Positions 48,126-50,640 of a stretch of 64,000 bases of DNA are shown one piece after another (position 1 is the stretch's first letter; each line of letters opens with the position of its first letter). A model generated the notes under the pieces. It was given only the letters and a program-made list of their open reading frames with translations. It ran no database searches and was not told where the DNA came from. Source of the DNA: Planctomycetota bacterium (GTDB taxonomy: Bacteria; Planctomycetota; J058; JAJDCQ01); the NCBI GenBank assembly GCA_029260755.1, contig JAJDCQ010000213.1, positions 62,001-126,000 on the forward strand, read 5' to 3'. The position numbers and the translations under genes were made by a program.

Positions 48126-49571
48126 TCACCCCGCCTCGTCGGCGCACTCCTCGCCGGGCCGGTAGCCCGGCGCGGTGCCGGCGATGATCCTCGCGGCGCC
48201 CTGGAGGCTCTCGTCGAGCGAGGGGTGAGCGTGGGTCGCGGTGCAGACGTGGGTGTAGGGCAGTCCGTGCTGGATCAGGACGGACACCTCGCCAACGACC
48301 GTGTCGACACCCTCGCCGACGGCCCGCACGCCGAGGATGCGGTCGTCCCCCTCGGGGGCGACGATCAGCTTCACGAAGCCGTCGCGGCACTTCATCGCGT
48401 GGCTGCGGTGGTTGCGGACGTTCGCCCACTTGCCGACGCGGACGTCGCCGAAGCGCTTCCGCGCCTCGGTCTCGTTCATCCCCGCTCCCGCGACCATCGG
48501 GAGGGTGAAGATGATGAACGGGACGTAGCTCGTCTCGAGCGGTTCCTCGTCCGCGAACATGCGACGGACGGCGCACCGGCCCTCCGCCTCGCCGACGTGG
48601 ACGAGCGAGAGGTCGTGCTCGTTGTCGCGCTGGCCGACGTCGCCGACGGCGTAGACGTGGGGGAGGCTCGTCGCGGTCGCGTCGTCGGTCGGGATGTAGC
48701 CGCGTCCGTTGAGCTCGACGCCGGCCTCGGCGAGCCCGAGCCCCTCGGAGTTCGGGAGCCGGCCGATCGCGAGGAGGGCCGCCTCGGTGACGACCGGGTC
48801 GCCGTCGCCGAGGTCGGTCTGCACGACGCCGTCGATCACCTTCATCGACTGGCAGCGCGCGCTCGGGCGAAGGTCCATGCCGAGCTTTCCGAACGCGCGA
48901 TCGAGGGCGGCGCTCACGTCCTCGTCCTCGTGGCTGAAGATCCGCTCCTTGGTGTCGACGAGGGTCACCTTGGTGCCGAGCGCGGCGAAGATCGAGGCGA
49001 ACTCGCAGCCGATCACGCCCGCCCCGAGGACGAGGAGAGAGCTGAGGGGGCGGTCGATGTCGACGGCGTGATCGCTGCTGAGGATCCGCGCCCCGTCCGG
49101 CTCCATGCCCGGGAGGGCGCGCGGCCGGGTGCCGGTGGCGATGATGATCCGCTCACCCCGGAGGAGCCGGTCATCGCCGACCGCGATGGTGTGGGCGTCG
49201 GGCTGGAGCCGGCCGCGGCCCTCGACGAGGGTGACGCCGAGGTCGGCGAGCTGCTCCCGGCGCACCTGCCGGAGCTCCCGCGCCCCGGCCTCGTTGGCGG
49301 CGCGCAGCGCCGCGTGGTCGATCGAGTAGCCGCCGACCGCGAGGCGGAAGCGATGCCGGATGGCGTGGTGACTGCGGGCGATCTCGTAGAGGCTCTTGCT
49401 CTTGAACGCCCCCTCGAGCCCGTAGCCGAGGAGCTTCCCCTCGCTCACGATCGCGACCTTCTTGCCCCGGAGGGCGGCGGCCTCGGCCGCGGCGACCCCC
49501 GAGGGGCCGGCTCCCAGGATCACGAGGTCGAAGGACTCGGTCTTGGTCTTGTTCTTGGTCTTGGTCGTCAC
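48126..49571 (-). CDS. Pyridine nucleotide-disulfide oxidoreductase family (dihydrolipoamide dehydrogenase/SthA-like) lacking redox-active CxxxxC
   Basis: ILGAGPSGVAAAEAAA, LLVLGAGVIGCEFASIFAALGTKVTLVD, YAVGDVG, THAHPSLDES; disulfide position reads GYGLEGAFKSKSL. Confidence 0.85.
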   Translation of the reverse strand: MTTKTKNKTKTESFDLVILGAGPSGVAAAEAAALRGKKVAIVSEGKLLGYGLEGAFKSKSLYEIARSHHAIRHRFRLAVGGYSIDHAALRAANEAGARELRQVRREQLADLGVTLVEGRGRLQPDAHTIAVGDDRLLRGERIIIATGTRPRALPGMEPDGARILSSDHAVDIDRPLSSLLVLGAGVIGCEFASIFAALGTKVTLVDTKERIFSHEDEDVSAALDRAFGKLGMDLRPSARCQSMKVIDGVVQTDLGDGDPVVTEAALLAIGRLPNSEGLGLAEAGVELNGRGYIPTDDATATSLPHVYAVGDVGQRDNEHDLSLVHVGEAEGRCAVRRMFADEEPLETSYVPFIIFTLPMVAGAGMNETEARKRFGDVRVGKWANVRNHRSHAMKCRDGFVKLIVAPEGDDRILGVRAVGEGVDTVVGEVSVLIQHGLPYTHVCTATHAHPSLDESLQGAARIIAGTAPGYRPGEECADEAG

Positions 49572-49708: not shown

Positions 49709-49797
49709 CGCAATCCGCGTCATCCGCGCAATCCGCGGTTCCACTCGTCTTCGCGCCGAGAGAACGAAACCGCGGATTGCGCGGATTGCGCGGACTG
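49709..49797. repeat. Family B intergenic inverted repeat, copy 2
   Basis: CGCAATCCGCGTCATCCGCGCAATCCGCGGTT ... AACCGCGGATTGCGCGGATTGCGCGGACTG; loop matches reverse complement of locus 1 copy. Confidence 0.85.
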
Positions 49798-49876: not shown

Positions 49877-50551
49877 CTACCGGCCCGGGCGTCCCCGCTT
49901 CGGCTTCGCCTTCACCACCCCGCCCTCCGCCGGCTTCCCGAGCGCCCTCCGCAGCGCCTTCTCCGCGTCGGCGGGCTCGAAGCCGCGCGGGCCCATGCCG
50001 CCGCGGTAGATGAGCTCGCCGTCGGCCCCGACGACGAAGAGGCGATCCGGCCACGCTCCGTAGGCCTTCTCGGTCGCGTCGTCCATGCCGTCGACCACCG
50101 CGGGGATGTCGATCCCGAGGTCGACGACGCAGGTCGTGGCGACGCCGTCGCGCTCGTCCTGGGTCTTGGGGGTCTTGACGTTGATGCCGGCGCGGTCGTT
50201 CGCCTTCGTCCGCCAGCCGTCGACGGGGTGCGCCTCGCGGATGTAGACGAGGAGGAAGTGGGCGTCCTCACCGTACTCGGCGAACATCGCGTTGAGAGCT
50301 CCGACGGAGCTCCGGAACGGAGGTCAGGTGTAGGACCCGAAGACGAGGACGACCGGCTTTCCGGCCAGCTTGGAGAGCTGGGTCTCGTTCTCGCCCTTGG
50401 CGTCCTTCAGGGTGAAGTCGGGCGCCGGGTCGCCGACGGCGAGCTTGCAGCGGTCCTCGCGGCGGCCGCCCTGCTGGGCGATCGCGGGCAGGGCGAGGGC
50501 GAGGGTGGCGAGGCCGATTCCGGCCCCGACGACGAGCTTTGCAGTGGACAT
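49877..50551 (-). CDS. Predicted secreted selenoprotein, iodothyronine deiodinase-like thioredoxin-fold; UGA (50324-50326) read as selenocysteine
   Basis: ORFs 50324-50584 and 49877-50287 join in the same frame: ...LAGKPVVLVFGSYT[UGA]PPFRSSVGALNAMFAEYGEDAHFLLVYIREAHPVDGW...; signal peptide MSTAKLVVGAGIGLATLALALPAIAQ. Confidence 0.85.
50296..50312 (-). promoter_or_regulatory. Candidate bacterial SECIS hairpin
   Basis: Minus strand: UGA + CCTCCGTTCCG (11 nt) + GAGCTCC GTC GGAGCTC, perfect 7-bp stem. Confidence 0.6.
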
Positions 50552-50640
50552 GGGGATTCCCCTCCGTGGTGGGGCGACGCGCACCCCTTGAACGCCCGCC
50601 GCCGACCGAGGTTCCGGAGGAACCTCAAGTCGTTGCGATG

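Follow-up and report, generated by a model that had tools for sequence, protein, structure and literature searches.

A predicted deiodinase-like selenoprotein encoded by an apparently split gene in a planctomycete genome

Bacterial deiodinase-like selenoproteins were first reported in 2005 from the Sargasso Sea, with four selenocysteine (Sec) and six cysteine forms (PMC1088965), and the GOS study of 2008 listed 22 Sec and 21 Cys forms of the family (PMC2398784). Excerpts of later catalogues and reviews give the family motif as UxxC, and the excerpts of the recent reviews assign it no specific function (PMC9312934, PMC13188914). The limited set of literature searched yielded no experimental work on a bacterial member. 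Because such proteins have been reported since 2005, the protein described here, which is encoded in a window of 64,000 nucleotides (the whole stretch of DNA analysed) from a planctomycete genome, is a further member of a known family; it resembles the 2005 and 2008 proteins in its PF00837 domain, the position of Sec, a SECIS element right after the UGA and the existence of Cys homologues. Whereas the family was first described from marine data, many of the relatives collected here come, according to their record titles, from groundwater, soil, peat and sediment MAGs. The points added by the present analysis are the wide occurrence of the family, the predominance of the U-P-P-F form, a nearly invariant Sec/Tyr/Glu/His core and the pattern of an additional cysteine, Cys141.

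The first-pass annotation had joined two consecutive open reading frames of the minus strand (50324–50584 and 49877–50287) as one frame with a single TGA between them, and this is borne out by the sequence: between the ATG at 50551–50549 and the TAG at 49879–49877, the only stop is the TGA at 50326–50324. Read-through yields a protein with a probable signal peptide followed by ...KPVVLVFGSYT-U-PPFRSS...LLVYIREAHPVDGW... (Table 1). The GTG at 50584, with which the first listed reading frame begins, is probably not the real start, because GGAGGGG lies 7 nt upstream of the ATG at 50551. Of 120 Sec homologues, 113 show a crude N-terminal export pattern, and from its sequence the protein is probably exported. 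The apparently split gene very probably encodes one selenoprotein of the deiodinase-like (PF00837) family. Automated calling of open reading frames yields two fragments in place of this gene, and members of the family are therefore easy to overlook in environmental genomes.

Table 1. Features of the deiodinase-like locus in the window.
Feature	Coordinates	Strand	Basis
Deiodinase-like selenoprotein gene (very probable), 224 residues with Sec76	49877..50551	-	One frame with a single TGA; PF00837; DIO3/DIO2 best by sequence and fold
In-frame TGA, predicted Sec76 in FGSYT-U-PPF	50324..50326	-	Aligned codon in 177 homologues: TGA 162, TGC/TGT 15
Putative ribosome binding site GGAGGGG	50559..50565	-	7 nt upstream of ATG 50551; from sequence
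Probable signal peptide MSTAKLVVGAGIGLATLALALPAIA^Q	50477..50551	-	Basic start, hydrophobic run, AxA-type end
SECIS-type hairpin, 8 bp stem (50313-50306 / 50302-50295), loop GUC (50305-50303)	50295..50313	-	Folding
Deiodinase-type loop-D segment, residues 103-127, Y103-x-x-E106-A-H108-P-V-D-G-W113 onward	50171..50245	-	Conserved; confidently predicted
Cys141, proposed resolving cysteine	50129..50131	-	Helix after loop-D; Cys column pattern

The search of the joined protein against PF00837 (T4_deiodinase) that had been proposed beforehand gave a match over residues 38–201 with 109 bits, compared with a curated cut-off of 27 (E 2.9e-31), so that deiodinase-like is correct as a family name, deiodination itself being a separate matter. 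No PF00837 match was found in any of 14 control genomes. The closest solved chains by sequence were mouse DIO3 (E 3.4e-24, with an alignment spanning the TGA site) and mouse DIO2 (E 1.2e-18), and the homology on both sides of the TGA, to PF00837 and to DIO3, supports the split-gene observation as real. NCBIfam model NF038285 (deiodinase family protein) scored 200.4 bits, under its cut-off of 250; the match covers only the C-terminal part of that model (positions 177–340 of 347), whereas the model calls for full length and a score above the cut-off. The AhpC-TSA and Redoxin profiles also match the read-through protein, at 45 bits each. An AlphaFold2 model built from 38 window and locus sequences has a pLDDT of 93.5, and the predicted fold best matches DIO2 and DIO3 in the PDB, followed by ResA. 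The thioredoxin fold is common to ResA, AhpC-TSA and Redoxin proteins, but the window protein lacks a CxxC and carries the deiodinase loop-D.

A first scan with the window protein alone returned no relatives, and an alignment trimmed after Sec, used as the query against a species-level collection, recovered 546. The best 80 of these have TGA in 79 cases and TGC in one; since Sec forms supplied the query, this sample is biased towards them. In 23 genomes with PF00837 among 58 relatives, there was almost always exactly one TGA. Reading the aligned site in 177 loci from the collection and from further loci of the phylum, 13 of which were missed by the automatic pattern, gave 162 TGA, 13 TGC and two TGT codons, in agreement with the expectation of Sec or Cys at this position. 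The family occurs in Planctomycetota (78 of 294 nearly complete genomes), Acidobacteriota, Armatimonadota, Chloroflexota, Verrucomicrobiota and other phyla. That an ordinary Cys gene has been hit by a nonsense mutation or misread in sequencing, an explanation for which nothing speaks besides the stop codon itself, is ruled out by these TGA-bearing homologues: 162 of them, from many phyla and assemblies, have TGA at the identical codon, which excludes chance, and with such relatives a sequencing error is very unlikely. The SECIS hairpin and the Sec machinery described below also argue against this explanation, which we consider negligible.

The host genome encodes all four components of the Sec machinery that the first-pass annotation had pointed to: SelA (541 bits), SelB (335 bits, over the cut-off, with the C-terminal part matched separately), a tRNA-Sec with a UCA anticodon (TCA in the DNA) and SelD. 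The selD gene (locus L011) has an in-frame TGA of its own, at ...CARSGG-U-AGK..., and hence is itself a selenoprotein gene; its TGA falls at the usual Sec/Cys position of SelD. Among the 78 Planctomycetota genomes with the family, SelA (called at E < 1e-80) was detected in 57 of 60 with the TGA form and in seven of 18 without it (Fisher p 1e-6, ignoring kinship); two of these 18 are fragments, and without them the association has a p of 2e-7, kinship again being ignored. Next to the locus, mtnA, purC, an aminotransferase gene and other genes terminate in TGA, so the codon is not generally reassigned. A different amino-acid meaning of UGA in the host organism (Trp or Gly) has nothing in its favour, and given the use of TGA as a stop in the neighbouring genes, the Cys found at the site in homologues without TGA and the tRNA-Sec with a UCA anticodon, its probability is vanishingly small.

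Immediately downstream of the UGA, we identified a hairpin, GGAGCTCC-GTC-GGAGCTCT, which has eight base pairs including one G-U and lies 18 nt past the UGA. The hairpin folds at -18.4 kcal/mol, with z scores of -2.0 against dinucleotide shuffles and -2.5 against synonymous shuffles. Likewise, the 48 nt after the UGA in 120 Sec homologues are more stable than their synonymous-codon shuffles (mean z -0.81), compared with -0.02 for the next 48 nt, -0.24 for the 48 nt before the UGA and +0.67 for Cys homologues (n = 9). A stem of at least five pairs with a loop of at most six bases is present in 98 of the 120 (control stretch, 15 of 119), and 116 of the 120 (control stretch, 29 of 119) carry a G at the first or second position of the loop; a small apical loop with a G is the hallmark of bacterial SECIS elements (PMC1088965). 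An RNAalifold consensus of 110 distinct sequences came out weak, as the register of the hairpin varies from one to the next; the sequences were therefore folded one by one and compared with synonymous shuffles. These comparisons support a bacterial SECIS-type hairpin downstream of the UGA, beyond what coding constraint would give. The homologues with Sec or Cys, the hairpin and the Sec machinery all agree with the initial reading of the UGA as selenocysteine and not a nonsense mutation, and on this sequence evidence Sec is almost certainly inserted there.

In common with animal DIO1–3, with which it shares about 33% identity, the window protein has a thioredoxin fold, the FGSxT-U-P-P-F motif, the Y-I-x-E-A-H-x-x-D-G-W loop-D and the Ser/Thr/Sec/Tyr/Glu/His active-site set. 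Among 166 distinct homologues, Y103 and E106 are present in all, H108 in 165 and S73 in 153, and T75 is almost invariant; the residues matching S73, T75, Y103, E106 and H108 belong to the proton relay discussed in PMC11592359. In contrast to the animal enzymes, which have a membrane anchor, the bacterial protein has a secreted-type N-terminus, and its SECIS sits within the coding region. It lacks the proximal Cys at U-2 of DIO1 and DIO3 (absent also from DIO2), having Tyr74 instead, and possesses the extra Cys141. The second His of the animal enzymes (DIO1 174, DIO2 182, DIO3 219) is replaced by Pro128, His being found at this position in 12 of 166 homologues, and the substrate clamp of DIO3 (Arg275) and DIO2 (Lys241) corresponds to Met186, with Pro most common in the relatives. 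Pro168, nearly invariant in the family, is Phe in DIO2 and DIO3; it was dropped as a difference from the animal deiodinases because DIO1 has Pro there too.

These comparisons bear on whether the protein is a true reductive dehalogenase, one that would strip halogenated phenols or tyrosines of iodine or bromine in the way that thyroid hormone is deiodinated by the animal enzymes. The almost unchanged Ser/Thr/Sec/Tyr/Glu/His network and loop-D would fit such an activity, as would the correspondence of Pro168 to DIO1-Pro213 (PMC11592359). The replacement of the second His by Pro counts against it but does not rule out similar chemistry, since human DIO1 with this His changed to Ala keeps its activity (PMC9141512). 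The clamp residue is lost, however, thyroid hormones are not expected in such bacteria (PMC1088965), and no conserved neighbour indicates halogen metabolism, so that we regard dehalogenation as a possible but rather unlikely function.

With respect to the UxxC motif of the catalogues, the window protein and nearly all its relatives instead have U-P-P-F together with a Cys in the helix; U+3 is Phe79 in the window protein, and Cys is found there in only three of 151 distinct Sec forms. The helix Cys, within one column of Cys141, is present in 136 of the 151, none of which has Cys at U-2 or U+3. Among the 15 Sec forms without it, seven have a vicinal Cys, four as CxU (as in DIO1 and DIO3) and three as UxxC, so that eight of 151 have neither. 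This exclusion has a Fisher p of 2e-8 when kinship is ignored; on the tree, about four changes of the vicinal Cys are needed, well-supported branches force two of them, and an independent-pair test had too few pairs and was not significant. The Cys that makes a selenenylsulfide with Sec in human DIO1 is the one at U-2 (PMC9141512). Since the helix Cys never occurs with a vicinal Cys in these Sec forms, we infer that Cys141 may be the partner of Sec here; this comparison of sequences is suggestive, and Cys141 more likely than not resolves oxidised Sec76. The pattern offers a direct mutational test of Sec recycling.

The scarcity of Cys at U+3 also bears on the proposal that the protein is a thiol-disulfide oxidoreductase of the ResA/TlpA type, in which Sec would act on protein disulfides. 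The rank of ResA structures next after the deiodinases among the fold matches, the near-invariance of Pro168 and the probable export all suit this proposal, but 148 of 151 Sec forms have U-P-P-F without Cys at U+3, and loop-D and the Glu/His network are not known from ResA; we consider the proposal unlikely.

We consider it more likely that the protein reduces peroxides or other electrophiles than that it carries out deiodination of the thyroid-hormone type. In the proposed scheme, the hairpin that follows the UGA would direct SelB and Sec-tRNA(UCA) to insert Sec76 at this codon. Within its deiodinase-type network (S73, T75, Y103, E106 and H108), Sec76 would attack an electrophile outside the cytoplasm; a peroxide is the most likely one, and a halogen or sulphur electrophile the alternative. 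Cys141 would then attack the oxidised Sec to form a selenenylsulfide, and an extracytoplasmic thiol relay would reduce the latter. The assignment of a peroxide-type substrate is plausible but tentative. Clustering of gene neighbours across the homologues revealed no conserved partner gene and hence no hint of the substrate.

Trees place DIO2 and DIO3 among the bacterial sequences, mostly those of Planctomycetota; because these trees lack an outgroup and the neighbours are weak and shifting, we draw no conclusion on origin. It is a speculative and doubtful idea that exported bacterial selenoproteins were the source pool of the animal deiodinases, that some of them retain or foreshadow dehalogenation and that the proximal Cys of DIO1 and DIO3 took over the pairing with Sec from an older helix Cys (Cys141). 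As the deiodinase site is kept where thyroid hormone is not expected, the family lends itself well to the question of which task this active site served first.

Downstream of the gene, on the minus strand, a reading frame at 48126–49571 encodes a pyridine nucleotide-disulphide oxidoreductase that is similar to lipoamide dehydrogenase and scores below the listed NCBIfam cut-offs. The usual redox CxxxxC segment reads GYGLEGAFKSKSL and contains no cysteines, so the product may not be a disulphide reductase. Past the selenoprotein gene, at 49711–49797, lies an inverted repeat of GCGCGGATTGCG-like sequence with a sub-threshold microRNA match, the only match in the Rfam search.

Some of the homologues deviate from the common form. 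A clade of Cys forms in one planctomycete family (f28; loci L136, L137, L139, L141, L145, L146 and L148) has the motif FGN-x-TCGPF, with Asn where the deiodinases have Ser, and three of its genomes (G199, G293 and G297) use Cys despite encoding SelA. By eye, EF-hand-like repeats (DxDxDG) precede the deiodinase-like domain in the Planctomycetota homologues L034, L035, L036 and L040, and in L037, L045 and L048 the domain is apparently joined to PDZ-like or heavy-metal-associated-like segments.
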